The notes under the pieces were generated by a model, which was given only the letters and a program-made list of their open reading frames with translations, did no database searches and was not told the DNA's origin. A program made the translations under genes and the position numbers. A stretch of DNA of 64,000 nucleotides from positions 1-64,000 of the forward strand of contig CP000876.1 of assembly GCA_000018565.1 (NCBI GenBank), read 5' to 3'. Origin of the DNA: Herpetosiphon aurantiacus DSM 785 (GTDB lineage: Bacteria > Chloroflexota > Chloroflexia > Chloroflexales > Herpetosiphonaceae). This document shows, piece by piece, positions 94-60,268 of the stretch (positions are counted from its first letter, which is position 1; each line of letters opens with the position of its first letter).

Positions 94-2412
94 ATGACCA
101 CCCCAACCACCAAACCTGCCTTTACCACCATCGTTGCTGGCCCGATTCACCTTGTGGGCACGTCCGAGCAAGTCGCGGCCTACTACACCCATGGCACGGG
201 CGATTTGCCGCCATGGTGGGCCGAATGGGATCAACTCTTAGGCGACACATGGGCGATGGATATTCTGGAATCACCCAGTGATGTCTCGCGCTTTATGCGG
301 GCCGCCGAAGTGCATCCCACCCTGCCGCGTGTGGGCTTTATCTCGAACTCCAAACTCAAATTGGAGTCGGGCTATGTCCTTGGCGCGGAGGATCGCGACT
401 ATAAAAATACGGCCCAGCGCCTGCACCGCTACTGGCAGTCCTTGCCGGAAGCCATGCAACAGCGCTATGCCCGTTTTGGCTCGCCTGCGACCATTGCAGG
501 CTTGCTCATGCGCCGTGAGGAGTGGGTCGATAGCCGCTGGGGCAGCAGTGTCCACGAGGCCGATACCCGCAGCGCCTTGGCCAAACAGGCCAAAGCCACC
601 ACCGAAGGCCGCATTGCCGCCGACGCATCCGCACCCGACCGCCCCAACCAACGGGCGATCCCGCTGATGCGCTATGGTGGCCTTGCCTGCCCGCGCTGTG
701 GCTGGCTGCAACGCAAAACCGATGGGGCCGTGCTTGATGCCAAGCAACTCAAGCAACGCGGCCTCGCCAGCGTGACCTGCCCCCAGTGTCACGACCACCT
801 CGGCCAACAATGCCGCGAACGGGACAATGTGCAGGATCGCAGCCTCCCAATCTTCCAGTCTGACGACTGGCAGACCTACGCCGTCGATGCCAACGGTCGT
901 CGCGCCATCCCGTGGGGCCAGCGTCCACGCTCGAATCCGCGGATGGCCCTCGCCTCCTTCATCCAGCGCCGCTACCCCCAACGGGTCGATCTCTACGTCC
1001 ATGATGAGATCCACGAGGCCAAAGGGGCACGCACCGCACTGGGCAATGCCTTTGGGGCCATGGTCGCTGCCAGCCGCACCACGGTTGGCATGACCGGAAC
1101 CGCCTACGGCGGCATGGCCTCGACGCTCTACGACCTCTTGCTCCGCCTTGGCAACACCGTCATTCGGGATCGCTGGGGCTGGAACAACCGCAGCGCCTTT
1201 GTGCGCGACGTGGGGGTCGTCGATGTGATGGATAAGGAGATCACGCGCGCTGCCACCGCTGGCCATTACGACGGGAAAACCCGCACCAGCACCGAGGTTC
1301 AGGAACGCGCAGGCATTACCGCCGACCTGATCACCATCGTCCAAAACTGCACCTATACCGTCCTGCTCAAGGACATGGGCTTTCAGTTGCCCGACTACCG
1401 TGAGGATGTCGTGCTCTTGAAACTGCCCATGGACATGCAGGCGCAGTATCGGCAGATCGAGGACGAGGGCAAAGCGATCATTGGCAATGGCGGCTACGAT
1501 GCCCTGTCGGCCTACCTCCAAGCCACCTTGTCATGGCCCTACCAGCCATGGCGACCCAAAACCATCAGTTCGCAGCTGGTCAACGAAACAGTCAGAACGC
1601 CCGAACTGCCTGCCGAGCGCATCCTGCCCCACCATACGTGGTTGGCCCAGTATTGCGCCGCGCAGATTCAGCAAGGACGACGCGTGTTGCTGTTTGCTGA
1701 GCATACGGGCAACGATGACATTGCCGTCGATCTGGCGGAAAAAGTCACCGCCCTCGCTCACGAGCAGCACCAGACCACGCTCAAGGTGGCCATCCTCCGC
1801 GCCACCACCGTGGCTCCGGGGGAACGCAATGCCTGGTTTACCGAACAGGTCAACAACGGCGCGAATGTCGTCGTGTGCAACCCGCGCTTGGTCAAAACTG
1901 GCCTCAACTTAATCGCGTGGCCCAGCATTGTGGTCGTCGAGCCGCTGTATAGCCTCTATGATCTCTTTCAGGCCAAACGCCGCGCCTTCCGTCCCACTCA
2001 AACCATGGGCTGTGAGGTGACCTTCTTGGGCTACGAGCACACGATGAGTCACCGCGCCTTGGGGGTGGTGGGCCGCAAAGCCGCTGCCGCGACCATGTTG
2101 AGTGGCGATGACAGCGAGGGCGGCATGCTGGAATTCGATCCGGGCATGAGTTTGCTCCAAGAGTTGGCCAAGCAATTACGCAACGCCAACCCCATGGACG
2201 ATGCCCGTGCCCTGCGCGATCAATTTCGCAGCGTCGGACAGACCCTCAAGGCCGAGGCCGAACGCCCCAGCCTGATCCTGCCGACTGACCCAACCCCACC
2301 ACCCAGCGACACCGCCGCGCAGCCCATCCGTTGGGACGAGCTGTTCACGGTCGTCGATGTGCCGACCCGCCACACGGCGCAGGTCGCCCACCAGTTCGCT
2401 ATGGTGCTGTAA
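94..2412 (+). CDS. DEAH-type helicase-like protein with zinc ribbon, no visible Walker A
   Basis: Superfamily 2 helicase-like protein of about 772 residues, probably acting on DNA in a mobile-element maintenance module. A zinc ribbon (C199-x2-C202 and C229-x2-C232) precedes a DEIH box at residues 304-307 (VHDEIHEAKG) and a motif III-like MTGTAYGG near residue 333. The C-terminal RecA-like half has VVVCNPRLVKTGLNL and a Q/R-rich motif VI-like stretch (QAKRRAFRP). The frame is open to the left edge, but AGGAG at 81-85 supports the ATG at 94. No P-loop precedes the DEIH box, so motif I may lie in a gene left of the window or be lost. It heads a same-strand run with the RadC-like and SWIM genes. 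Confidence 0.6.
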   Translation: MTTPTTKPAFTTIVAGPIHLVGTSEQVAAYYTHGTGDLPPWWAEWDQLLGDTWAMDILESPSDVSRFMRAAEVHPTLPRVGFISNSKLKLESGYVLGAEDRDYKNTAQRLHRYWQSLPEAMQQRYARFGSPATIAGLLMRREEWVDSRWGSSVHEADTRSALAKQAKATTEGRIAADASAPDRPNQRAIPLMRYGGLACPRCGWLQRKTDGAVLDAKQLKQRGLASVTCPQCHDHLGQQCRERDNVQDRSLPIFQSDDWQTYAVDANGRRAIPWGQRPRSNPRMALASFIQRRYPQRVDLYVHDEIHEAKGARTALGNAFGAMVAASRTTVGMTGTAYGGMASTLYDLLLRLGNTVIRDRWGWNNRSAFVRDVGVVDVMDKEITRAATAGHYDGKTRTSTEVQERAGITADLITIVQNCTYTVLLKDMGFQLPDYREDVVLLKLPMDMQAQYRQIEDEGKAIIGNGGYDALSAYLQATLSWPYQPWRPKTISSQLVNETVRTPELPAERILPHHTWLAQYCAAQIQQGRRVLLFAEHTGNDDIAVDLAEKVTALAHEQHQTTLKVAILRATTVAPGERNAWFTEQVNNGANVVVCNPRLVKTGLNLIAWPSIVVVEPLYSLYDLFQAKRRAFRPTQTMGCEVTFLGYEHTMSHRALGVVGRKAAAATMLSGDDSEGGMLEFDPGMSLLQELAKQLRNANPMDDARALRDQFRSVGQTLKAEAERPSLILPTDPTPPPSDTAAQPIRWDELFTVVDVPTRHTAQVAHQFAMVL

Positions 2413-2535
2413 GCACCCATCGGCCATGCCCCCACGACGATTTGGGACACACCCAGTGTGCGGTTCCGCGTCGTGGCGGAATGGCACCGGAGCCGTCACC
2501 ATGACGAACCACCATACCCCATGGGCAGGTGACCG

Positions 2536-2769
2536 ATGAAGCACCATACCCGCCACCATCGCCACCGTCGCCGCAGCCGTGGCCAGCACTGGCCCAACCG
2601 CCACCGCTATCGCGCTCAACGACGACGGAACCAGCAGCGCATCCAAACCCTGCGCATGATCACGAGCCTCGTCGCCGTCAAGATCCTCGTTGCCCCGATC
2701 ATCTCCGATGTGATTGGCAATTATGTCTATGACGGTCTTGGCGTGATCATCCGCTGGTTGCAGCGCTAA
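2536..2769 (+). CDS. Small basic protein with one membrane segment
   Basis: 77 residues of unknown function. The first ~40 are extremely basic (RHHRHRRRSRG and similar), followed by one hydrophobic stretch around residues 42-66 (MITSLVAVKILVAPIISDVI) that could be a membrane anchor. It lies between the helicase-like and RadC-like genes on the same strand. No strong Shine-Dalgarno is visible and an overlapping frame is also open, so it may not be translated. No family recognised. Confidence 0.4.
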   Translation: MKHHTRHHRHRRRSRGQHWPNRHRYRAQRRRNQQRIQTLRMITSLVAVKILVAPIISDVIGNYVYDGLGVIIRWLQR

Positions 2770-2838
2770 CCACCCTCTTCTTCTTCCCCGTTTGGGGAGT
2801 AGCGCACCGCTGCTCCCCAGCGGTGAAGGAGTCTACCC

Positions 2839-3453
2839 ATGGCTATTGATGCCATTCCCACCCTGCTTGCCCTGTTCAATCCCTCCCGCCCAACCGCTCG
2901 CGATCAGGCGTGTGCCGCCGCGCTCTGGCAGGCTGCTGACCAGTCGTGGAATACCCTCGCTCGCATGAGCGAGGAGGAGTTAACCCCACTCGTTGGCCGC
3001 GCCCATGCCATTCGGCTGCGCACCGCCTTCGCGATTGGCCACGCCAAACTGGCCGAAGCCGTGACGGGCGAACCGATCACCACACCCATGCAGGTCGTGG
3101 CCTTGCTCCAAGCCGAAATGAGTCACTTGGAACAGGAAGAACTGCGGGTCATCTCGTTGTCAACCCAAGCGCACATCATCGGCATGCACACCGTTGTGGT
3201 TGGAACCCTCAATACCGCCTATTGCCGCATGGCCGACCTCTTTCGCGAGCCGCTGCGCCGCAATGCCGCCTCGGTCATCCTGGCGCACAACCACCCGTCG
3301 GGGATGGTGTGGGCATCGCCCGAGGACATCCTGCTCACCAAGCAGGCCATTCAGGCAGGCCAACTCTTAGAGATTGAGCTACTGGATCATCTGATCATCG
3401 GCAAAGGCGGCTATACCAGCATGCGCGAGCGACGGCTTGCGTGGAGTCATTAA
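2839..3453 (+). CDS. RadC-like JAB/MPN domain protein
   Basis: 204-residue RadC-family protein. The N-terminal ~90 residues are helical, with a helix-hairpin-helix-like stretch. The JAB domain carries the metal motif H150-N-H152-P-S-G followed by D163 (HNHPSG...SPEDILL). Family members are common in plasmids, phages and integrative elements; their biochemical role is still unclear despite the old DNA-repair name. A good ribosome-binding site (GAAGGAG) sits 7 nt before the ATG. The gene is followed after 15 nt by the SWIM gene, so the two are probably co-transcribed. Confidence 0.85.
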   Translation: MAIDAIPTLLALFNPSRPTARDQACAAALWQAADQSWNTLARMSEEELTPLVGRAHAIRLRTAFAIGHAKLAEAVTGEPITTPMQVVALLQAEMSHLEQEELRVISLSTQAHIIGMHTVVVGTLNTAYCRMADLFREPLRRNAASVILAHNHPSGMVWASPEDILLTKQAIQAGQLLEIELLDHLIIGKGGYTSMRERRLAWSH

Positions 3454-3468
3454 TCGAAAGGAATCCCC

Positions 3469-3999
3469 ATGCAGACCGTCATCCAAACCGCCATGCTCAC
3501 CCACTTCGGCCAACTCACCGCTGCCATCACCATGGCCGCACCCACGCCTGCGCTGCACCATTCGGCGGCACTGTTGCTGGCCCGCTGTGACGAGATTGTG
3601 CCCAATCATTGCGCACCGACCTCGATCACGGCCACGGCCCTCAAACCGATTCCGCCCAGCAGCCCCTTGGCCACCTTGCTCCAGAGCGACACGACAGCGG
3701 ATGACCGCTGGTGCTTTCGGGTGCAACAAGCGCTCTTGATTGCCGGAGATTGTTCGCGTCGCCAACTCTATGAGGCGGTGGTGCTTGTCCTCGGCCAGCA
3801 GGTCTCACGCAGCGATGCGACCACGTTCACGGTGCAGGGGTCAAAAGCCTACACCGTCACACTGGCGAATGGCATCGACCATACCGAGGGCTTTACCTGT
3901 CAATGCAAAGGCTTTTGGAGCCATGGGGGTGGGCAACTCTGCAAGCATGTCTTGGCTGCCGCGCTGATTGCGCTTGATCCGGAGGAAGGCGGATGCTGA
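3469..3999 (+). CDS. SWIM zinc-finger protein
   Basis: 176-residue protein with a C-terminal SWIM finger C144-x-C146-x11-C158-x-H160 (CQCKGFW...LCKH). SWIM fingers bind DNA or protein in helicases, transposases and accessory factors. The N-terminal ~90 residues are unassigned. AAAGGA precedes the ATG. The 3' end overlaps the start of the next reading frame by 7 nt, which points to translational coupling. Its neighbours (helicase, RadC) suggest a DNA-processing role in the same mobile element. Confidence 0.75.
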   Translation: MQTVIQTAMLTHFGQLTAAITMAAPTPALHHSAALLLARCDEIVPNHCAPTSITATALKPIPPSSPLATLLQSDTTADDRWCFRVQQALLIAGDCSRRQLYEAVVLVLGQQVSRSDATTFTVQGSKAYTVTLANGIDHTEGFTCQCKGFWSHGGGQLCKHVLAAALIALDPEEGGC

Positions 4000-4520
4000 C
4001 CTTCGACGAGCGGGTCAAACGGCGGGTCACGCGCAAAAACAACCGCCTGCGCAAACGCTACCCCCTGTTCGCTGCCGAATGACACCTCGGCGGCGCATTG
4101 GCCGATTGGCTGGTAACCGAGCAGCAAGCAACCAGCGATCTCGCGGCGATTATCCAGTCAAAAGACGCGATGCTGGCGCGGGTCGCGGCCAACGATCAGC
4201 GACGCGAGGTCAAAGGATTAATCCTTCGCAGCCTCGTGGCGGAGGTCATTGATGCAGCGACGTTGGCAACGCTTGATCGCCAGCGGGCAAAAATCCCCAT
4301 GGCAGGCGCATATACCGCTGAGTTCTGGTTTGCCCAGCTTCGAGCGCATCGTCCACATGAGGCCTATGCTCGCTGCGAACATCGGGAAAGCCATCCGGTA
4401 TTTGCCGAATGGGATGCACGATGCCCGCGCTGCCATCTGCCACTGACCAAACCGCCGACGGTGATCCCACCGCAGGCGGAACAAACCATGCTCCCGTTCT
4501 CAACGCCAACAGGCCCGTGA
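3993..4520 (+). pseudogene. Small basic protein gene interrupted by an in-frame TGA
   Basis: An ATG at 3993, behind GGAGGAAGG, starts a basic peptide (MLTFDERVKRRVTRKNNRLR...) that stops at TGA 4080-4082 after 29 residues. The same frame then stays open to 4520 and encodes ALADWLVTEQQ... ending in a putative zinc site (CEHRES...CPRCH). Reading the TGA as Trp would give one protein of ~175 residues. The likely cause is a single TGG-to-TGA change, making this a pseudogene; internal initiation at TTG 4098 is the alternative. The family is not recognised. The 3' end overlaps the hairpin at 4501. Confidence 0.55.
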
Positions 4521-4549
4521 TCGCTGAGATCACGGGCCTGTTGGCGTTG
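4501..4549. terminator. Perfect 22-bp stem hairpin, bidirectional terminator-like repeat
   Basis: Left arm 4501-4522 and right arm 4528-4549 are exact reverse complements with a 5-nt loop (gctga). It sits between a plus-strand gene end and the minus-strand gene ending at 4800. Related hairpins containing GATCACGGGCCTGTTG-like arms occur at 10495-10525 and 12759-12802. This copy and the 12759 copy are both followed by TTGGTTAATAGTATTC. Confidence 0.75.
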
Positions 4550-4799
4550 GTGGGATTGGTTAATAGTATTCGATGTAAGTTATTAGTTTCCTCGTTCAAA
4601 ATGAGCAGCAAATACAGAAAGCTCGGAATCTTGTGCAATTGACGATCACAGGTGACGGTATTGACACGTTCCGCATACGCTTCATACGATAGAACGATCA
4701 TATCGTTTGGATGCCGAGAACGATCAGCGCCTGTGCTTATAATCGGAATCATTGCAGCATGATAATCCAGATCGCTGCACTAGCGTGATCGGGGATTCG
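4550..4799. other. Intergenic stretch, no convincing gene
   Basis: AT-richer spacer between convergent transcription units. It contains ATTGACACGTTCCGC at about 4659-4673, a promoter-like string also seen on the minus strand upstream of the cyclase gene (near 59690) and in a variant form near 58935. The minus-strand frame through here is not convincing as a gene. Confidence 0.4.
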
Positions 4800-7700
4800 C
4801 TAGAAAATGTCCTTGATGAGCTTCTCGACTTCTTTTTCTCCTAAGTCAAAGACCTTTTGGAGCGAATCCGAGACATCCTTACTGGCATAACCGAGTTCCT
4901 TGAGCACGTTGCCAGCCTCCTTGGCTACTTTATCATAGACGTGGCGCAAAACCTTGGCCAGATCGTGGATCGGGTAATTCAGTTCCTTGAGAATCCGCGA
5001 TGCCTCGTTGGCATTTTTGTCGAAGGTATGCTGTAACGCGCGTCCGACCGCCTTCACGTCATAGCCTGACTGTCCGAGCAGCGTCACCACAGCCCGGCTA
5101 TCCAAGGCCAAGGCCTGATGTAAGCCACGGGCGGCCTCTTCGACTTCGTAGCCGGCCGCTTTGAGCAGTGCCACCGTGTCCGCCGCCGACTGCTGGAAGA
5201 CCCCCACGGTGACACCCGTCACCTCGCGGGCATCGTAGCCTACCTCGCGCAGCACTTGGATCGCCCGCGTTCGATCGTTCTCGAACTTCTGGAGGAGCGC
5301 CCGTGCCACCGCATCCGCCGAGTAACCAACCTCCTTGAGGATCGCCGCTGCCTCACGGTGGCTTTTGTCGAATTCCGTACGCAGCGCCCGCGTCACATCC
5401 TCGACCGCGTAGCCGGTGTCATGCAGCAAGCGTGCCAGCCCACGGCTATCCAGTTCGAAGGTGCTGCGCAGAGCATCGGCGATTGGCTCAACACCTTGGA
5501 CGAGCAACTCCTTAAGCAGCGTCGCGACGGCGTGCTTGTCTTGGCCGAAGTGCTGGCGCAACACGTGGATAATCTGGCCCATCCCGCTGATGCCTTGGAT
5601 TAGGTTCTGTTTGACCAACTCGAACCATCCTCGCAGGTCGTGCATCACGTGATGGAAAACTGCCTCGAGATGGTGTGCCACGGTCTCACCCAGTTCGGCG
5701 AGGGCCGCACGGCTGATGTCGAGTGTAATCGGGCCAACCCTGTACGCGTTCGTGCCGAACTGGAATCCACCTTGGAAGGTAGCACTGCTCACACCATCTT
5801 GGTGGGCGATCGTTAGCTGTCCGTTGATACCGACATTGAGGCTGAGTGACCCCAGCGGCCCGAAGTCGAGCATGCGACTGACCCCCAGCACCACCGATCC
5901 GCTTGCACTGAAACTGTGCAGGCTGGTGAAACTCGCGTGCAGGTCAAAGGTCATCCCCGGGAGCAGCTCACCGCGCAGGTCGAAGAGCAGACCGGCTTGC
6001 GCAATGCTGATCTGTACGCCGACACCAATGATACCGAGCAACTGAATGTCGCCACTCAGGAAAAAGTGCTCTGGAGCCGCCGTCGAAAGTGAGAGATGGG
6101 GGCCAGCCTTGCCGCCTAGACTGGTGATTGTGAGCAGCGATCCGCCAATCGCGATCGGGCTTAGCTGTGCCTCAGCACTGATGCCCTGCCCTCGGCTAAT
6201 TGTGAACGACAGGCTGACTTCTAGGCCAAAGAAGACGATCGTACCACTCAGCAGAAAGCCGCTCGGAAAGTAGGTCTGACCAATGTAGGCACCACGTGAA
6301 CCTGGTACCCAGTAGAGTTGTGCCTCCAACGCACCCACGATCTGGTTGCCCTGGCGCTCAAACTCAAAGTGACGCATGGTCGTCAGATCGGTCAGGTGCC
6401 AGACATGGCCGGGCGTGTTCACGACCAACAGCGCGGATTGACCCTGCTGGGGAAAAGTCACGCCGACCGCTTGGAGGGCCGCCGCGACCGCCGTCATGTC
6501 GTAGCTGTCCAAGGCTGTGGACAAGTCGCCCGACAGGAGAAATTGCCCTGTTCCCGTGAGTCCGACTTGGGCTAGTGCCTCGCCAAGCGACACTGGTAGC
6601 ACTCCACCAACAAGCACCTCCACCGCGTCGCGCAGCGTGAGGTCGCTGACCGCGCCGGCGAGCATGCTATTGGCCGGGTCGGTTGAGTCGAAGAAGATCG
6701 CCAGCGAACTTTCGAAGGTCGGCGTGTCGATCGTCGCCGCAAAGCCAACGCTGGGTACGCCCTCGAAATCCACGCCCAGCTCCAGCGCGAGATTGCTGAT
6801 TTGTAGGCTGTGATAGTTCACCGGGCCGCCCTTGAGGTTCCCGGCGATCAGTGCACCGTCATCGACGAGGAGCATCGCCATGTCAAACTCCAGCGGCTGA
6901 TCAGCGAGCACGACCAGTGCCTGGCCTTGGAGAAATAGCCCAGTTTCACTGCCTTGGAGTGTGGCACCGAACTCAGCCACGATGCGCAGGGTGGTGAGCA
7001 CGCGAACGTCAACGCTGGCGAACAGCCGTGCATTCTGCATCGGATTCTCACCCAAGAGCATGGTGATACCGATGTCGCCCGAGATCTTAAGAAAGGTCTG
7101 GAGCATCGTCAGTGTCGGAGAGTTGCTCAGTGTGATATCTGCATAGAGCGTGAGGCCAGACCGCAGCCCGCCGGCTTGGCTGGGCAGCACGATCTGACGA
7201 CCCCCACTGCCGCTGGACCCGAGGTGGCTCATGTCGGGGAAGGTAAAGGCTGGGCTCGCGATGCTTGAGATAACCAAGAGTAGGTTGCTGAACTGGAACA
7301 GATCGTCGAACGGCTTGAACGCTGCCAAGCCAGGCACATCTGAAACGCGGTCGGCGATCAGGTCTACGCCAGCGGCGAAGCCCCAGCTGCCCCGCTCGCG
7401 TAGCACCTGTAAGCCCAGTGTGCCGAGTCCCGCTGGCTCAGCCTGGAGCAGCAGCGTAAAGATCGACTGCTCGCCATCGCGATCGCGCTCGACCGCGAGG
7501 TACGTCTGCGGCAGGGTAAAATCTGGCAGCCAGCTAGGCGGCACCCAATCGCTGCCAGCCAATTCGCTGGCGATGCGTTTCAGGTTAACGTCAAAGGCTG
7601 GGATGTGGGCGCTGATGCGAAACGAGCCAGGAAGCTGGTAGAAGCAACTGGTCTGGGCTCCCAAGATAGTAAGCTGGCCGTCGATCAGGCCGCCCATGCT

Positions 7701-9140
7701 GTCGCCGTTGCTAAAGTTATCCAAGGCAATAGTGATGAACTGAACTTGGAGTGGCTCCAGTCCGCCCAACGGCAGCATCCACGGGGTGTCTTGCTCGATC
7801 GTCGTCTCGAAGGTCAGACGGTTCTTTGGACTAGCGAACTCAACCGCCAGCCCAAGCTCCTCCAGCAGAAACTCCGGCGCGTCTGTGACCTGCGGCAGAT
7901 ACACGGCGAGCAGGTCGGTTAGCTTAACTGTCGTGCCTTCGACCAGCGCGGCCTGAATGCGGTAGTTGGGCGCATACGCATGCACCTCCATCGAAAAGAG
8001 TGGATTAGCACTGGGTACGTCGAGCTCGGCGAAGATGGCGGTTTGGGCGCTGCGCGTACTTTCGAGCGGGTTATTGACGGTAAACCATGCTCGCACCCGT
8101 TTCAGCGTCAGGTCGCCCGGGATGATCTCCCAGCCCTCCCCTTCGAGGGCGGCGAGCTGGAGCCAGAGATTGACCGGCTGGAGCGTAGCCAAGCTGATAC
8201 CAAAGCCGAAGCCGCTGAGCCGCACCGTGTCGGGGTTCTGGTAGCGCTCAGGTAACGAGCCAACCAACTCGTCACCGCCCAGCAGCGCCACCAGTTGGCC
8301 AGGTGCTGGCAATGGCAAATTGTCGATGCTGGCACGCAATTTGAGCACACCGATCCGGGTACCCGTCAGCATGGTGGCCAGTCGGATCGAGCCAGTACCA
8401 AGATCGAAGGTCGTGCTAAGCTCAAGCCCGACCATAGAGCGCGGTGCGGTCGGCGGCATGCTCTGGTCAAAGGCGCTCAGCAGCCGCAGTTCCACCGGTA
8501 ATTCTTGGCTCAAACTGGGAAAATATTTGTTGAAGCTCGATGCCAAGTCTAGCGCAAGGTTAATAGTTGGACCGTTGGGCAGCGGGATGATCGGGCCAGT
8601 TGCGATCTCGCTGGCCAGTGTCCCCAGCACCGCAGTGACATAGCCGAAACTGGGGCCGCCCGGCGTGAGTGCGCCATAAAAGCTCAGACCAGCAGCGAAG
8701 CTAGTACCGGAATCGTCGCAGGGTGCCGAGGCGAAGAGCAGGAACGGCATCGTTCCAGGAGAAAGGGTGACATCATCGAAGATTGTGCCCGCCAACTGGG
8801 GGAAGCTATCAGCGAAGCGCCAAGCCGTAGCCGATGTGCCGTCTGGTAGCAGCAGCTTGAGGGCGAGCTGGGGTATTGCTTGGTCGTCAAGCGTGAAGCT
8901 GGCTGCGACCTGGACCAAGGTGAAACCAAACAGGGTGCTCAGGCCGCTCACCACGACAGCGCTACCATCGGTGAGAGGGCCATCCGTGTCTGTAATCTCC
9001 AGTGTCTGGATTTGGAGATAGGGTTGGCCTAACAGTTCCGCGATCGGGGCCGAACCAAGCGTTGCGGAAACCAAGCGCAAGCTGCGGGCGGTGGAGTCAT
9101 AGGCCGACAGCAGATGCTGCTGCAAGGTGTCGAGAGTCAT
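4800..9140 (-). CDS. Giant beta-rich protein with nine C-terminal 29-residue repeats
   Basis: 1446 residues. Roughly residues 1-1150 are alternating hydrophobic/polar beta-strand-like sequence rich in G, S, T and L (for example SLGGKAGPHLSLSTA), without a signal peptide or membrane helix. It may belong to the large bacterial DUF6603-like proteins, but that is only an impression. The last ~270 residues are about nine degenerate 29-residue helical repeats, consensus F-(D/E)-x6-A-x2-L-K-E-x-G-Y-x3-x-V-x2-A-L. This is a helical solenoid suited to binding a partner. It lies 29 nt downstream of the EEP-fold gene in one operon; a nuclease or phosphatase effector with a large carrier is possible but unproven. 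Confidence 0.8.
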   Translation of the reverse strand: MTLDTLQQHLLSAYDSTARSLRLVSATLGSAPIAELLGQPYLQIQTLEITDTDGPLTDGSAVVVSGLSTLFGFTLVQVAASFTLDDQAIPQLALKLLLPDGTSATAWRFADSFPQLAGTIFDDVTLSPGTMPFLLFASAPCDDSGTSFAAGLSFYGALTPGGPSFGYVTAVLGTLASEIATGPIIPLPNGPTINLALDLASSFNKYFPSLSQELPVELRLLSAFDQSMPPTAPRSMVGLELSTTFDLGTGSIRLATMLTGTRIGVLKLRASIDNLPLPAPGQLVALLGGDELVGSLPERYQNPDTVRLSGFGFGISLATLQPVNLWLQLAALEGEGWEIIPGDLTLKRVRAWFTVNNPLESTRSAQTAIFAELDVPSANPLFSMEVHAYAPNYRIQAALVEGTTVKLTDLLAVYLPQVTDAPEFLLEELGLAVEFASPKNRLTFETTIEQDTPWMLPLGGLEPLQVQFITIALDNFSNGDSMGGLIDGQLTILGAQTSCFYQLPGSFRISAHIPAFDVNLKRIASELAGSDWVPPSWLPDFTLPQTYLAVERDRDGEQSIFTLLLQAEPAGLGTLGLQVLRERGSWGFAAGVDLIADRVSDVPGLAAFKPFDDLFQFSNLLLVISSIASPAFTFPDMSHLGSSGSGGRQIVLPSQAGGLRSGLTLYADITLSNSPTLTMLQTFLKISGDIGITMLLGENPMQNARLFASVDVRVLTTLRIVAEFGATLQGSETGLFLQGQALVVLADQPLEFDMAMLLVDDGALIAGNLKGGPVNYHSLQISNLALELGVDFEGVPSVGFAATIDTPTFESSLAIFFDSTDPANSMLAGAVSDLTLRDAVEVLVGGVLPVSLGEALAQVGLTGTGQFLLSGDLSTALDSYDMTAVAAALQAVGVTFPQQGQSALLVVNTPGHVWHLTDLTTMRHFEFERQGNQIVGALEAQLYWVPGSRGAYIGQTYFPSGFLLSGTIVFFGLEVSLSFTISRGQGISAEAQLSPIAIGGSLLTITSLGGKAGPHLSLSTAAPEHFFLSGDIQLLGIIGVGVQISIAQAGLLFDLRGELLPGMTFDLHASFTSLHSFSASGSVVLGVSRMLDFGPLGSLSLNVGINGQLTIAHQDGVSSATFQGGFQFGTNAYRVGPITLDISRAALAELGETVAHHLEAVFHHVMHDLRGWFELVKQNLIQGISGMGQIIHVLRQHFGQDKHAVATLLKELLVQGVEPIADALRSTFELDSRGLARLLHDTGYAVEDVTRALRTEFDKSHREAAAILKEVGYSADAVARALLQKFENDRTRAIQVLREVGYDAREVTGVTVGVFQQSAADTVALLKAAGYEVEEAARGLHQALALDSRAVVTLLGQSGYDVKAVGRALQHTFDKNANEASRILKELNYPIHDLAKVLRHVYDKVAKEAGNVLKELGYASKDVSDSLQKVFDLGEKEVEKLIKDIF

Positions 9141-27001: not shown

Positions 27002-27223
27002 GATTCATCCTCATCGTAGCCCCTGCGATGATCAAGGCTCTTGGTCTTGGGTTATGGCAGGAGCATCACGATGACGACTCGTTGGTTTGCCGATCGCATG
27101 ACGCGCTATCAGTTGCTGCATACCCACCCCGATTGGTCGAATCGCCAGTTTGCGGCGGCCACCCAGCGCTCACGGGCATGGGTCAAAAAATGGAAAGCAC
27201 GCCTTGGTTCCCCACCCCGGGTA
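27002..27223 (+). pseudogene. IS481-like transposase, N-terminal fragment
   Basis: The N-terminal end of the same transposase as at 33453-33844 (TRWFADRMTRYQLLHTHPDW, then RSRAWVKKWKARLGSPP), preceded by the same leader DNA (TTCATCCTCATCGTAGCCCC). Coding is cut off at 27223 where the MITE begins; the rest of the IS is missing on the far side. Confidence 0.85.
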
Positions 27224-27529
27224 GGGTGTCCATTCGGCGAAAAACGGCCTCAGCCTTAAAATTTGTTAATTTTCAGCAGAGAAATACACGTCAACAGCGG
27301 ATAATCCTCGTTATCGGCGGTAGAAGGCGTGGGAACGACTGCCCATCGGTGATTGTTGCGCCATTTTTGACCCAGAATACAACCGATAAAGGGAGGGCGG
27401 TATCAGTTATGGCCGTTGATTGGGATTGCAATGCCCACGGCGGCGGCATATCGAGCAGTACGGTGAGCGATAATACTCCATTGTTTCCCTTTATTAATCC
27501 TAGGGCCGTTTTTCGCCGAATGGACACCC
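27224..27529. repeat. 306-bp MITE, copy 1
   Basis: Terminal inverted repeats of about 26 bp begin GGGTGTCCATTCGGCGAAAA and the element is flanked by TA on both sides, as for TA-targeting IS630/Tc1-type transposition. Copy 2 at 59895-60200 has the same length and matching sequence in the opposite orientation. Frames open across it are not genes. Confidence 0.9.
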
Positions 27530-27613
27530 TATCCGATGAGCAGGGAGGCGGAAATTGCGAATTGAGATTACAGGATCTCTCCTGATCCGACCTCTTTCGC
27601 ACTTTTGCCCGGT

Positions 27614-27647
27614 TGTCAACAATCTGTCAACAGAGAGCAGCTATGAT
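27614..27647 (+). promoter_or_regulatory. SARP-like promoter of the RiPP cluster
   Basis: TGTCAAC (27614-27620), AATC, TGTCAAC (27625-27631), 10 nt, TATGAT (27642-27647). The direct repeats are 11 bp apart and occupy the -35 position, the geometry used by SARP-type activators. Two more promoters in the window share it (49403-49436 and minus strand 35580-35547). The precursor ATG lies about 150 nt downstream. Confidence 0.65.
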
Positions 27648-27805
27648 TCTGGAATAGTGGTCACCAGTTCGTACAGAGGCTGACCAGCTATAAGAGGTGT
27701 GGTGCAGGAGTGTGTCGCTGGTCAGCGGCGCAGATGCACTGACACAGAGTAAACTAGTTTGCCGCTAGGGCGCACTAGATTTAATTATAAAGGAGGATTC
27801 TTCCG

Positions 27806-27964
27806 ATGAACACCCACGTAACCACTACGATGATGGATCTGCCCGAAACTGGCTACGAACTCGCTGAGGATGACCTACATGCGTTGGCCGGCAATGCCCC
27901 TCTGGAATCCCTGATGGCGGAGCCATGTACCTGCACCCCTTGGGGTGGTATCGATGTCGACTAG
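27806..27964 (+). CDS. RiPP precursor peptide (graspetide type)
   Basis: 52 residues with AGGAGG 9 nt before the ATG. The leader (MNTHVTTTMMDLPETG...) contains ELAEDDLHALAG, resembling double-glycine-type leader ends (E-D-D/E-L-x2-L-A-G). The C-terminal core candidate EPCTCTPWGGIDVD offers Thr42 and Thr44 as hydroxyl donors and Asp50 and Asp52 as carboxyl partners for ATP-grasp-made ester links, plus Cys41 and Cys43. It sits directly before an ATP-grasp ligase and a PpiC-related maturation gene. Assignment rests on context and composition; the processing site is inferred. Confidence 0.75.
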   Translation: MNTHVTTTMMDLPETGYELAEDDLHALAGNAPLESLMAEPCTCTPWGGIDVD

Positions 27965-27978
27965 ATAGCTGGCTGCGC

Positions 27979-28006
27979 TGGGGAGTGCCTCTCTGGGTAC
28001 TCCCCA
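27979..28006 (+). promoter_or_regulatory. Hairpin between precursor and ligase genes
   Basis: Arms tggggagt (27979-27986) and actcccca (27999-28006) with a 12-nt loop and no T-run. Such hairpins after RiPP precursor genes often stabilise the 3' end or attenuate read-through, so the short peptide mRNA exceeds the enzyme mRNA. Confidence 0.5.
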
Positions 28007-28030
28007 ATACAATGAGGAGCCATTTCAACG

Positions 28031-29050
28031 ATGATTCTTGTTCTCACCAGTCCAGATGATACTCATGCTGATCGGGTCTGTGATCTGCTGGACCAAGCCG
28101 ATGCTCCTTGGTTTCGGTTCGATCCGGCCGCCTTTCCCCACTCTGCCCAGTTGACCGTGACCACGGGCGCAACGGGCTTGGTCCAGCGTCTCCTTGTTAC
28201 GAGAGATCATAGCCTAGATTTGGCGCAGGTCACAGCGCTCTGGTACCGCCGTCCCCAAGCACCAGTGGTGGAAGTGCCAGGGATCGACCCATCTCATAAT
28301 GCGGCGTTGGCGGAAGAATGCCAACACTTGGTTCGTGATCTATGGGAGACATTGGCGTGCTTGATGGTGCCGGCATCGTACTGGGTTATCCAGCGAGCAC
28401 AACACAAGATCTCCCAACTTCAGTTGGCCACAGCCCTGGGGTTTGAACTCCCGCCAACAATGGTCACCAATGACCCATCGGCACTGATCGCTTTCTCTCG
28501 CGCCCACAATGGGCAAATCATTAGCAAACCGTGTATGGGACTCGCCCTGCAACGGACGGGCTACTATCAATACACACGTCCCGTCACCCGCCGAGACCTT
28601 GCTGCAGCCGAGACCATTCACGCATCGCCCATGATTTTCCAGAAACTGGTGCCTAAGGCGGTTGAGGTACGCATCACCGTTGTCGGCGATCAGGTATTTG
28701 CCGTCGCGATCCACTCCCAGGTCTCCCATCATACCCGCTATGACTGGCGGCGCTACGACCATGATCATACGCCGCTTACACCGCATACCCTGCCCCCCGC
28801 ACTGGCGGCCCAGTGTGTGGCACTGGTGGCTCGCATGGGCCTGACCTACGGAGCCATTGATATGATTCTTACGCCTAACGGACGATATATCTTTTTGGAA
28901 ATCAATCCTAATGGACAGTATCTTTGGGTTGAATCCCGCACCGGCGTTCCTATCAGCGCGGCCATCGCCCGTCTGCTCCAGACCGGCACCCACCGCACTG
29001 TCGCCAATCTAGTCGTGTCCGAGGGAGGAATAGCATGCCTCCTGGAGTAA
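28031..29050 (+). CDS. ATP-grasp RiPP maturase (graspetide ligase, MvdD/SAV_5884-like)
   Basis: 339 residues. It matches the ATP-grasp peptide maturases: HKISQLQLATALGFELPPTM, IISKPCMGLALQ, the lid strand MIFQKLVPKAVEVRITVVGD, AIDMILTPNGRY, and the metal-binding FLEINPNGQYLW. These enzymes use ATP to join Asp/Glu side chains to Ser/Thr (ester) or Lys (amide) in a precursor peptide. It lies 66 nt after the precursor gene, with GAGGAG upstream, and overlaps the next gene by 16 nt, so the three genes form one operon. Confidence 0.9.
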   Translation: MILVLTSPDDTHADRVCDLLDQADAPWFRFDPAAFPHSAQLTVTTGATGLVQRLLVTRDHSLDLAQVTALWYRRPQAPVVEVPGIDPSHNAALAEECQHLVRDLWETLACLMVPASYWVIQRAQHKISQLQLATALGFELPPTMVTNDPSALIAFSRAHNGQIISKPCMGLALQRTGYYQYTRPVTRRDLAAAETIHASPMIFQKLVPKAVEVRITVVGDQVFAVAIHSQVSHHTRYDWRRYDHDHTPLTPHTLPPALAAQCVALVARMGLTYGAIDMILTPNGRYIFLEINPNGQYLWVESRTGVPISAAIARLLQTGTHRTVANLVVSEGGIACLLE

Positions 29051-30108
29051 CAGCACTGCTGGTGCCCATGCTAACGGTTCTGGAGGAGCTGCACCATACA
29101 CGTTGCACGCCTGCTCTGGCTCAGAAGCGGATTCAGCACATCAAGGCTATCCACCCGACGGCGCAGCTAGAATTGGTATGGGAATATGATGCCTATAATC
29201 AGGCCTGGGACTACACGCTGCTGGCGCACGGCCTAGTGGCCGGTGTAGTGGCTCTGAGCTACGCGCCGCCCGACCGCGCCCCATGGGCTTTTCGGGGAAC
29301 TGAATCCTGGAGTGAGCATGCCGTGGTGCGGGTCAACGCAATTACCCTCTATGTGGGCGATGTGCTGACGTATCTGGACAGTATATGGAATCATGCACCC
29401 GTTCTGGAGCGCTTGATTGCCAAGGGACTCATTGATGATGCCATCCGTCGTGATTCTATCGAGTTATCAGCCACTGAGCTTCAGGAGGCAATGGATGGCT
29501 TCCGTCGGGCTCGCGGTTTGCTGACGGCCACTGCGACCGAGGCATGGCTGACCGCCAAAGGTCTATCTTATCAGCGCTTTGAGCAGTTGGTGGAACGCGA
29601 GGCCCAACTAGCGCGGCTAAAGGATCGCGTTATAGCTAGTCGTATGGCGGACTGGTTTACGGCTGAGTTGGCTGGGTTTGATCAGGTGCGGCTGATGATC
29701 TTAAGCTTTGCCGATGTAGAGCATGCCCAAGAGATCTGGCGCACCGCGATACAGGACCCTGATCGGCTTGCATACCAAGCAGAAGAAGCCTGGACTAGGG
29801 GGGTTCTGAATGAGACCATAGGTGTGTTTCAAACCTGGCTCCGGCATGAGCGCCCCACTTGGCTTCCGGAAACAGCTTTTGGATGCCCCGCAGGGACGAT
29901 ACTTCCACTTCAGCCGCTGCCAGACGGTGGCATAGCACTGATCAAAGTGCTGAGCTACCAGCACGCCCAGCGTGATCAGGCCACTCAACATGCCTTTCGC
30001 CAGAAGCTCTTCACTGCCTGGTTGGATGAGCAACGCGCCCAAGCAACCATCACATGGAATTGGGGCACACACGAGCTACAGTCTCAGACACCCACTGTGG
30101 GAGACTAA
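29035..30108 (+). CDS. PpiC/SurA-related peptide maturation protein
   Basis: 357 residues. The middle (about 145-235: ELQEAMDGFRRARGLLTATA, then AWLTAKGLSYQRFEQLVERE) resembles the SurA/PpiC chaperone N-domain. The C-terminal part (FGCPAGTILPLQPLPDGGIA) could be a degenerate parvulin-like domain. I take it as the PpiC-related 'putative peptide maturation system' family found beside ATP-grasp RiPP ligases. The N-terminal ~130 residues (LELVWEYDAYNQAWDYTLLA) may bind the precursor. A short GAGAC/GTCTC hairpin follows the stop. No exporter or leader protease is seen before the insertion sequences begin. Confidence 0.7.
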   Translation: MPPGVTALLVPMLTVLEELHHTRCTPALAQKRIQHIKAIHPTAQLELVWEYDAYNQAWDYTLLAHGLVAGVVALSYAPPDRAPWAFRGTESWSEHAVVRVNAITLYVGDVLTYLDSIWNHAPVLERLIAKGLIDDAIRRDSIELSATELQEAMDGFRRARGLLTATATEAWLTAKGLSYQRFEQLVEREAQLARLKDRVIASRMADWFTAELAGFDQVRLMILSFADVEHAQEIWRTAIQDPDRLAYQAEEAWTRGVLNETIGVFQTWLRHERPTWLPETAFGCPAGTILPLQPLPDGGIALIKVLSYQHAQRDQATQHAFRQKLFTAWLDEQRAQATITWNWGTHELQSQTPTVGD

Positions 30109-30587: not shown

Positions 30588-31522
30588 TCATCGTGTCCAG
30601 CGTTTGCGGGGACGGGCTGGCTGGCGGTTACGCAACCGGACGCGTTCCTGCCGACATTGTTCGCATAGCTGGTTTACCAGCTGCTCAAAGGACATCATGC
30701 CACCCAGCAAGCCTTTGATCCGCAGCCGTTTGATCACGGTTTCTCCACTCCGGACGACCAACTCGGCGGTCGTCGCCTCCAGGGTCACGGCGACCTCTTG
30801 GCCTGCGGAGCGTGTCCCAATGTGATAGTGCTGCGTATCAATCGTGATTGCGCCATGGCGATTCACCTGCCGAACAACCGTCCAGCCATCCCGCGCACGC
30901 AACCAGCCATCGGCATCGACCATGGCTGGCACAGCGGGCAGCACCGGGCGATCGGGATACGCCGCAGCAGGCGGACGGTTGGCACATCCACGGCCTTGGT
31001 GGGGTCGTTCGGTCGTGTACCACGTACAGTACGTATCCAAGTGCGCTTGGGCCTCAGCCTCGGTGGTTGGCCAGTGTTTAACGATACATTCTTCTTGATA
31101 GGTCTTGTGAAAGCGTTCGACGACCCCCTTCTTGTCGGGTCGTTGCGGCGGACAGAGGTCAATCTGAATGCCTAAGTTCAGCAACAGGCGCATGAAGGGG
31201 GATGGGAAGTCCGCTTTGGCCGTACTGCCAACAAAGCGCGGGTTACGATCCATCCGAATCAGCGGGGGCACGCCATGGGTTTGCAGAATCTGCGCGGTCG
31301 TGCGGATAACCGAGGCCATATGAAAATTACCATCAACGACCACCGCGAAGGGAATCGCGGTACCTGCGTCGATCCACGCAAAGGCTTCGACCGCATGGCG
31401 GGGCTTGCCGGTTGGATCAGGGGGAATGGTCGTGACATCGGTAAAGTCAATCTCGATTTCCTGCATGGGTGCGGGACAGCAGGGCGGTTTCCGGGGTGGC
31501 GTGTGGCGCTGAGTGATCCGCT
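30588..31522 (-). pseudogene. IS481-like transposase, C-terminal part
   Basis: Catalytic half of an integrase-core transposase. DDE residues appear in IEIDFTDVT (D), IRMDRNPRFVG (D) and KKGVVERFHKTY (E), followed by a beta-rich C-terminal domain (QEVAVTLEATTAELVVRSGE). The gene is separated from its N-terminal half (33453-33844) by the IS at 31523-33452, so it is inactive unless that element excises. Confidence 0.9.
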
Positions 31523-33452
31523 CACGCTAAGCCACGACATGGTGGACACATAGGGATCACTTAGCCCTTTTTTGCCTGAAGCGAACACATGTTGGTCTTG
31601 CGACGCTGGGCCAGAGTCGCTAGGATAGGAGGGGCATCGACCTATCGGGTTCACCAGCGAGGCCGCTATGCCCAAACGTGCCGCTGCGCCTGCGTGGCAA
31701 CAACTCCAAATGCAGATTACCTGCCCCAAACAGTATCTCTATGAACTCATTCGCCCCATTGTCTTAACCGAAGAGTCGGTGGCCGACCGCGCTAGCGAAA
31801 CCGCCGTGCCCGATCACATCATCACCTATCATCTTGACCATTTTCGCACCAATGGCTTACCTGGCTTGGTTGCCGCTCCCACGCCCCTCCAACGCGCTGC
31901 CCGCTTTCCCGAAGAATTGGTCGCCTTTGTGCTGGCGCTCAAAGCGGAGCATCCGCCGCTCACCGCCCATGAACTGGCTACGATTTGTTTTATCAAACAC
32001 GGTCGGCGGCCCAGTATCAAAACCATTCGGCGCGTGCTCGCCCATCACCCGCTCCCGCAGCTCACCACGCGGCGGTTCCCTCCGTTCCATGACAATCCTG
32101 ATCCCATCCAACGCCGCCACGCCATCCTGGTCTTAAGCCTTGAGGGCTGGACGAAAAAACGGATTGCGACCTATCTTCAGATTAGCCGTTCCACCGTGTA
32201 CAACACCTTTGCACGCTGGCACAAGGAGGGCTTCGCAGGGTTACAAGCAAAGTCCCGTGCGCCGCGCCGTCGCCATCCCAAAGTCACCATCGCTATCCAG
32301 CAGCGGGTTCGCCGCTTACAGCGCAACCACTTGTTGGGTGCGTGGCGCATGCATGCCGCTCTGCGCCGTGAGGGCATCCGCCTCAGTCCGCGCACCTGTG
32401 GGCGCATTATGGCGGTCAATCGCGACCTCTGCCCCGAATTGCCCAAACGGCAGCGATCACGGAAGCATGAACCGCGTGCCATGCCCTTTGCTGCCCAGTA
32501 CCGACATCAGTACTGGACGATTGACATCCGCTATCTCGATATGCACCGCTTGGGTGGCGGCCATATTTACTGTATCTCGATTGTCGAAAATTACAGCCGC
32601 GCCATTCTTTCCAGCGCGATCAGTCGGATTCAGGACACCACTGCCGTGTTGAAAGTGCTCTATGATGCGGTGGCAAAGTACGGCTGTCCTGATGGGATTG
32701 TGAGCGATTCAGGCAGTGTGTTCCGCTCGCATCGGCTCCAGGAGGTGTGTCAGCACCTGCGGATTCAGCAGTGCCCGATTGAGAAGCGCCAACCCTGGCA
32801 ATCCTACATCGAGACGACCTTCGGTATCCAACGGCGTATGGCTGACGAAGCAGAGGAGGGGTTTCGGGCCGCGCAGAGTTGGGATGCGCTCTGGCACGCG
32901 CATCGCACATGGCTACTCCACTACAACACCGAAGTGCATTGGGCACATCGGCAGCGCCAAGATGGGCGAGAAACGCCAGCCGAAGTCCTGACGTGGATTC
33001 GCGGTCGCCCCTATCCGGAACGGCTGCTCCAGCGCATTTTTGCCGCAACACGGGTGAAACGGCGTTTGGATCGGGTGGGCTTTCTGCGGGTGCGCCGCTG
33101 GCGGATCTACAGTGAAATTGGCTTGGCCAAGGAAGCCGTTGAGGTATGGCTGGAGGCGCAGCATGTCACGATTACCTATGCGGATCACCACCTGCGGTCG
33201 TATCCGGCGACGATTGATACCGATGGGTGGATACGGACGATGGAGACGGGCACGCGCTACGAGCATCCCTTTGGGAGTCGGCAGTTAATGCTGTGGGATG
33301 TGATTGAAGACGACTGGGGCAAGACCCAGTATGTCGGCAGTACGCCGCGCCGAAAGTCCACCATCCCCCTCGCAGAGCAGTTGCGCTTCGCTCTTGGGTA
33401 AGCCTCTTCGCTAAGTGATCCCTATGTGTCCACCATGTCGTGGCTTAGCGTG
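31523..33452. mobile_element. 1930-bp IS inserted in the IS481-like transposase
   Basis: Perfect ~42-bp terminal inverted repeats start CACGCTAAGCCACGACATGG. A 7-bp duplication ATCCGCT lies on both sides (31516-31522 and 33453-33459). It carries one full-length transposase. Fragments of its end sequence also lie at about 40685-40700 and 63126-63146. Confidence 0.92.
31668..33401 (+). CDS. Intact integrase-core (DDE) transposase
   Basis: 577 residues. Two HTH regions are visible: the N-terminal ~100 residues, and residues ~145-215 (EGWTKKRIATYLQISRSTVY). A retroviral-type integrase core follows, with DDE candidates YWTIDIRYLD, IVSDSGSVF and QSYIETTFGIQRR. The C-terminal domain is basic and beta-rich like Mu/IS481-type transposases. 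Full length between intact inverted repeats, with a target duplication, suggests a recently active element. Confidence 0.9.
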   Translation: MPKRAAAPAWQQLQMQITCPKQYLYELIRPIVLTEESVADRASETAVPDHIITYHLDHFRTNGLPGLVAAPTPLQRAARFPEELVAFVLALKAEHPPLTAHELATICFIKHGRRPSIKTIRRVLAHHPLPQLTTRRFPPFHDNPDPIQRRHAILVLSLEGWTKKRIATYLQISRSTVYNTFARWHKEGFAGLQAKSRAPRRRHPKVTIAIQQRVRRLQRNHLLGAWRMHAALRREGIRLSPRTCGRIMAVNRDLCPELPKRQRSRKHEPRAMPFAAQYRHQYWTIDIRYLDMHRLGGGHIYCISIVENYSRAILSSAISRIQDTTAVLKVLYDAVAKYGCPDGIVSDSGSVFRSHRLQEVCQHLRIQQCPIEKRQPWQSYIETTFGIQRRMADEAEEGFRAAQSWDALWHAHRTWLLHYNTEVHWAHRQRQDGRETPAEVLTWIRGRPYPERLLQRIFAATRVKRRLDRVGFLRVRRWRIYSEIGLAKEAVEVWLEAQHVTITYADHHLRSYPATIDTDGWIRTMETGTRYEHPFGSRQLMLWDVIEDDWGKTQYVGSTPRRKSTIPLAEQLRFALG

Positions 33453-59786: not shown

Positions 59787-59893
59787 TCATGATTGAATGG
59801 ACAATCGTTCGTATCTGCTCCACGCCGCTTGAATCGTTGCGGGCGTCTGGTAGCCCAGCCCCGAATGCAGTCGTTGACGATTGGAAAACGGAT
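59787..59893 (-). pseudogene. IS3-family orfB tail
   Basis: Minus-strand LPDARNDSSGVEQIRTIV in one frame; the frame matching IS3 tails reads RQRLHSGLGYQTPATIQAAW ending at TGA 59787. The same tail occurs decayed at 40445-40503 and 52375-52437. The MITE at 59895 inserted into it. Confidence 0.7.
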
Positions 59894-59894
59894 A

Positions 59895-60200
59895 GGGTGT
59901 CCATTCGGCGAAAAACGGCCCTAGGATTAATAAAGGGAAACAATGGAGTATTATCGCTCACCGTACTGCTCGATATGCCGCCGCCGTGGGCATTGCAATC
60001 CCAATCAACGGCCATAACTGATACCGCCCTCCCTTTATCGGTTGTATTCTGGGTCAAAAATGGCGCAACAATCACCGATGGGCAGTCGTTCCCACGCCTT
60101 CTACCGCCGATAACGAGGATTATCCGCTGTTGACGTGTATTTCTCTGCTGAAAATTAACAAATTTTAAGGCTGAGGCCGTTTTTCGCCGAATGGACACCC
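59895..60200. repeat. 306-bp MITE, copy 2
   Basis: Inverted copy of 27224-27529 with the same ends and length, flanked by TA (59893-59894 and 60201-60202). It lies in the IS3 orfB tail. Sequence identity by eye is complete or nearly so, implying recent movement. Confidence 0.9.
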
Positions 60201-60268
60201 TACCCGCTCATGGCCCATGGGAGGCATAGTCCGCCGACATGTACCCTGTCATCTAGATCAGGCTAGGT

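Follow-up and report, generated by a model that had tools for sequence, protein, structure and literature searches.

Three adjacent genes on a replicon of about 340 kb in the gliding bacterium Herpetosiphon aurantiacus DSM 785, encoding a precursor peptide, an ATP-grasp ligase and a TIGR04500 protein, very probably (about 80%) form a compact TIGR04500-type ("group 21") graspetide cluster. The window, meaning the whole 64-kb stretch analysed, covers positions 1-64000 of this 339,639-base replicon, which we take to be plasmid pHAU01, in a genome of 6.79 Mb and three contigs whose chromosome contig has 6,346,587 bases. The precursor, synthetase and TIGR04500 partner stand in the order conserved in the family, the active site of the ligase is intact and the leader is of the family type; ring number, connectivity and the fate of the core cysteines are inferred. 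A preliminary description had recognised a graspetide-type cluster with a novel-looking precursor. The cluster reading is supported by recurrence of the ligase-TIGR04500 pair with a leader-type precursor at 24 of 24 loci elsewhere; the architecture is that of group 21, and the proposed start at 27614 corresponds to no gene start. The cluster type is already described, since the "PpiC-related protein" belongs to a known partner family essential for rosaritide formation (PMC13097080), and the window holds a further, Cys-bearing member. A new class with an unknown helper was accordingly ruled out, as the helper is a TIGR04500 protein with a published partner function. What distinguishes the window cluster is its compact cysteine-bearing core and its pseudo-parvulin partner.

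Graspetide group 21 has one characterised member, rosaritide (Carter 2026, PMC13097080), made by mirABCD of Micromonospora rosaria NRRL 3718, in which MirA is the precursor, MirB the TIGR04187 synthetase, MirC the TIGR04500 protein and MirD a peptidase-containing ABC transporter (PCAT). Rosaritide carries three macrolactones (S8-D22, S9-D26 and T11-D24); MirB is inactive by itself, and MirC co-purifies with it and is required, no product being formed without it (PMC13097080). TIGR04500 proteins were already among those associated with ATP-grasp loci in a 2022 survey (PMC8939145). The rosaritide cluster, like that of the window, combines a precursor, a TIGR04187-type synthetase and a TIGR04500 partner, and both cores place Ser/Thr donors ahead of C-terminal D-x-D(-x-D) acceptors. 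The window core differs in having just two terminal Asp and two Thr, plus a CxC, and its cluster in the AG-N at the probable cleavage site and in the lack of its own PCAT gene.

The 52-residue precursor with a strong ribosome-binding site, as first described, is confirmed: the ORF occupies 27806-27964 (+) and AAGGAGG (27790-27797, +) precedes its ATG. Its leader is MNTHVTTTMMDLPETGYELAEDDLHALAG and its core NAPLESLMAEPCTCTPWGGIDVD, which would be released by cleavage after LAG; the likely core thus has 23 residues (NAPLES...), and the shorter core proposed earlier, EPCTCTPWGGIDVD, is part of it. Searches of Pfam and NCBIfam with the precursor gave no match. When a leader profile was built from 29 related precursors, with the window peptide excluded, and run against the 1,887 frames of the window, this peptide ranked first (E 0.005) and was the only significant frame, the runner-up having E 2.8. 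Small ORFs upstream in related loci carry the leader pattern [DE][LI]xxxGxELDExxLxxVSGG, and the window peptide joins a leader of this family to a core with Ser/Thr donors and C-terminal Asp/Glu acceptors. Its candidate donors are T42 and T44 (plus C41 and C43), and its candidate acceptors D50 and D52, with P-W-G-G between T42/T44 and D50/D52. D-x-D ends with upstream clusters of Ser, Thr or Cys recur in other family cores, among which that of the window is one of the most compact, with two Thr, two Asp and two Cys within twelve residues. Against the group 21 assignment count the absence of a local exporter or protease, the cut site, which reads AG-N rather than GG, and the core sequences, which are too divergent for certain alignment.

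The synthetase (339 aa, 28031-29050, +) begins 66 nt after the precursor ORF and is of the MvdD/MvdC/TIGR04187 type, matching these profiles with E values of 1e-71 to 5e-65. Every score lies under the curated NCBI cut-offs of the named subfamilies, which also counts against the group 21 assignment; a relative (L039) likewise scores under the curated equivalog/subfamily cut-offs, and the Pfam MvdD pre-ATP-grasp domain is found above cut-off. The earlier statement that the ligase has all expected motifs was borne out, every column invariant in a 19-row alignment being kept, with intact ATP/Mg ligands and the D(F/W)R motif (K166, K209, R214, DWR 238-240, D277, E290 and N292). Its best PDB profile matches are microviridin-type ligases (5ig8, 5ig9, AMdnB and CdnC). 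With such ligases (MdnB/MdnC, AMdnB, CdnC) it shares the ATP-grasp fold and catalytic residues, whereas those characterised work without a TIGR04500 partner and on another core motif. Since the enzyme also weakly matches the wider RimK-like ATP-grasp superfamily, some of whose members add amino acids to proteins, an activity other than side-chain cyclisation could be imagined, such as extending the precursor by an amino acid or a tail of several residues. That the nearest solved relatives are cyclases, that the D-W-R motif is retained, and that the closest architecture, that of rosaritide, yields macrolactones (PMC13097080) make such an activity very improbable, and side-chain cyclisation is the preferred assignment.

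The third gene (357 aa, 29035-30108, +) overlaps the ligase gene by 16 nt, and its product scores 515 bits with the TIGR04500 profile, whose cut-off is 180. A structure model (pLDDT 84) divides it into an N-domain (1 to about 90), SurA-like chaperone helices (about 91-215 and about 315-343) and a parvulin-fold domain (about 212-312). Residues 91-343 of the model match SurA, Cj1289 and PrsA (Foldseek E 1.6e-8 to 3rgc; VIA Z 8-14), and residues 212-312 match 3rfw with Z 10.9 and rmsd 2.4 A over 93 residues, and the PpiC, PpiD and Pin1 domains with Z 8-10. The two catalytic-site His residues of parvulins sit in the motifs xHIL and GxHII. The window protein has RLMIL and GIALI instead, the His positions being occupied by Met and Ala, and the canonical pair is absent from the aligned relatives as well. 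An active prolyl isomerase was therefore set aside as first choice, and the protein seems, from its model, to keep the parvulin fold without the active site. The overlap and the SurA-like and parvulin folds agree with the preliminary description of an overlapping PpiC/SurA-related protein, but the family is in fact that of the TIGR04500 partners, and the catalytic His are gone. Compared with SurA, Cj1289 and PrsA, chaperone-parvulin proteins of the same modelled fold, it has in addition its N-domain and a location in a RiPP operon. For MirC, in contrast to the parvulin fold modelled here, the authors reported no resemblance to a PPIase domain, and a RiPP recognition element (RRE) was suggested for its N-domain (PMC13097080). 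In the window protein, the modelled N-domain (pLDDT 79) gave no significant Foldseek match and a best VIA Z of 7.2, to a phage neck protein; these comparisons lent no support to a possible RRE (PqqD-like winged-helix fold) there.

A single-sequence search of genome contigs with the window TIGR04500 protein gave no loci, and a search with a three-member alignment gave 24, from Actinomycetota, Myxococcota, Chloroflexota (a Thermomicrobiales MAG) and one unplaced MAG. At all 24 the synthetase gene adjoins or overlaps the TIGR04500 gene and a small leader-type precursor ORF lies upstream, so the prospect raised at the outset, that homologous ligases might lack a conserved precursor beside them, did not materialise. 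Whole-genome searches yielded additional actinobacterial and myxobacterial loci. The clusters of Nonomuraea, Planobispora, Microtetraspora, Hyalangium and the Thermomicrobiales MAG (L034-L057) resemble the window in gene order, leader motif, spacer hairpin and frequent core Cys, and differ in having very different core sequences and, in most, an adjacent PCAT; their synthetases are at most about 51% and their TIGR04500 proteins at most about 36% identical to those of the window. Trees of synthetase and partner (50 rows) share a main split into two fully supported clades, an agreement that suggests the pair moves together, and the window proteins lie on a long branch within the larger clade of both. 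As a separate observation, the Planobispora/Planomonospora clusters (L043, L045, L049) each have several tandem precursors upstream of the synthetase, with near-identical leaders, differing cores and a common PPG[VYI]C near the C-terminus. Three actinobacterial TIGR04500-like genes (L123, L124, L125) precede a small conserved ORF (MFRHIVLLKW...); having no synthetase, they were excluded from the cluster set and probably represent another, non-RiPP branch.

The spacer between precursor and ligase contains a strong RNA hairpin (27979-28006, +; MFE -29.6 kcal/mol, z -3.6), and relatives across phyla have hairpins of unrelated sequence at the same place (e.g., L032, L031, L042, L106). Over 40 precursor-synthetase spacers, which are not independent cases because related species are included, the mean z is -2.3 with 25 below -2; for coding segments the mean is -0.24 and 2 of 57 fall below. 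The hairpin likely serves to keep the mRNA of the precursor more abundant than that of the enzyme and would so set the precursor:enzyme ratio. Upstream of the precursor, a 10-nt perfect inverted repeat (GCTGACCAGC / GCTGGTCAGC, 28 nt apart, 27679-27726) is possibly an operator or leader-RNA element; the upstream RNA fold is weak (z -2.4). An Rfam search gave no match, and scans for sigma-70 promoters and terminators did not give clearly more hits than shuffled sequence.

Within the Chloroflexota the system is rare, being found in 2 of 158 Chloroflexia genomes (at E 1e-15) and in 1 of 400 genomes of a phylum-wide sample; weaker TIGR04500 matches in many Chloroflexia genomes were discounted, as the matched part is mostly the C-terminal half and suggests ordinary PPIases. 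Precursor and cluster are absent from all five other Herpetosiphon genomes searched, and two rve-domain transposase genes lie immediately downstream (30588-31466, -; 31668-33401, +), a combination that points to horizontal acquisition. A 318-bp element with 42-nt terminal inverted repeats (88%) is present in two 100% identical copies in opposite orientations (27218-27535, upstream of the cluster, and 59889-60206), is MITE-like and has recently moved. Flanked by insertion sequences and this element, and missing from its Herpetosiphon relatives, the cluster could have been imported recently and be partly decayed; on this reading its genes are intact but no product matures, the cognate exporter having disappeared upon mobile-element insertion. 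The observation made at the outset that no exporter or protease is visible holds, in that the whole 64-kb window contains no C39-peptidase transporter, and a PCAT adjoins 16 of the 24 related loci. However, none of the three ORFs is interrupted, the ligase retains its catalytic residues, and both the ribosome-binding site and the spacer hairpin are intact; myxobacterial members (L041, L042) also lack a local PCAT, which is an accessory rather than a defining trait; and the chromosome of the same genome has three C39 transporters, two beside small precursors with ELSDEEL-type leaders and the third within another graspetide cluster. Decay thus appears improbable, and a working cluster exporting its product in trans through chromosomal PCATs is, to judge from these genes, plausible.

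That second, chromosomal graspetide cluster (L139, G000:C1:2117000-2134000) has no TIGR04500 gene; within it lie a synthetase (8014-9102, -), a PCAT (5808-8096, -) and, at about 3800-5800 (-), at least four tandem small precursors (e.g., ...TYLEEEAAEIDDVVGCLMPIDGYSGTSCDDID, ...GYSGTGCDDSD and ...GYTVTGCDDSD), in which a Cys once more adjoins the acceptor Asp. In a further chromosomal region (L140, G000:C1:2206000-2218000), six tandem Cys-rich precursor-like ORFs (2365-3525, -; ELSDEELEVVSAG, then KEKKSYSCTVSRGDGACTCTCSA) lie next to a PCAT (3591-5783).

The two core cysteines had been thought unusual for the class. In the TIGR04500 family they are not: of 30 cores, 21 contain Cys (34 of 663 residues), and the leaders have none (0 of 895 residues). 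A CxC or CxCT motif is shared by the window core, the Thermomicrobiales core (SCYCTSS...PDEDF) and myxobacterial cores (ACTCPNTCGPCGPDDH and GCSCPNTCGPCGPDDH among them), as CTCT, CYCT, CTC and CSC. The word "Cys" does not appear in the main text of the rosaritide paper (PMC13097080). Graspetide synthetases are able to form non-native thioesters (PMC13097080, PMC12291112). Cys might be a native donor, C41 and/or C43 attacking activated Asp50/Asp52, alone or together with Thr, so that the window cluster and its CxC relatives would make natural macrothiolactones, a thioester graspetide whose labile bonds the chaperone-like partner would shield during synthesis. Confinement of Cys to the cores and recurrence of CxC/CxCT would fit this, as would three-Cys cores (L040, L128), which cannot pair all Cys in intramolecular disulfides, and a homologous myxobacterial pair (QGGTTSDTGDTDQ / QGGTCSMCGDCDE) with three Thr-Cys exchanges, each requiring at least two base changes and in keeping with Cys as an alternative donor. 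Yet one of these exchanges affects a residue flanked by Asp on either side, where Thr is no donor in rosaritide, and a Nonomuraea-type set shows a Cys-His exchange, where Cys is unlikely to be a donor; for these two reasons thioesters are kept as a minority reading. Thioesters are moreover labile, Thr is always available in the window core, and the exchange counts are few and not independent, no statistical test having been built on them. Native thioesters are in sum considered unlikely, and Thr-Asp lactones are preferred.

For those lactones, maturation may proceed as follows. The leader MMDLPETGYELAEDDLHALAG would bring the peptide to a synthetase-TIGR04500 complex, in which the TIGR04500 protein would act as a required chaperone or substrate-presenting subunit rather than as an active prolyl isomerase. 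ATP would activate the C-terminal D-x-D by phosphorylating the Asp50 and Asp52 side chains, and attack by Thr42 and Thr44 would close up to two macrolactones (-36 Da) across the P-W-G-G turn, with C41 and C43 most likely left free or joined in a disulfide (-2 Da). Leader removal after LAG would follow, and one of the three PCATs encoded on the chromosome would export the product. As a default guess for its activity, the product may inhibit proteases, as microviridins and plesiocin do.

In summary, the cluster extends partner-dependent graspetides from a single characterised actinobacterial example to the Chloroflexota and Myxococcota, adds a cysteine-containing member to a group for which chemistry was first reported in 2026, and brings out a repeated trait, the confinement of cysteine to the core. 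Its compactness makes the window core a clean test case for the natural use of a Cys donor by graspetide synthetases, and the cluster is equally suited to the question of what a His-less parvulin-like fold does in ring formation.
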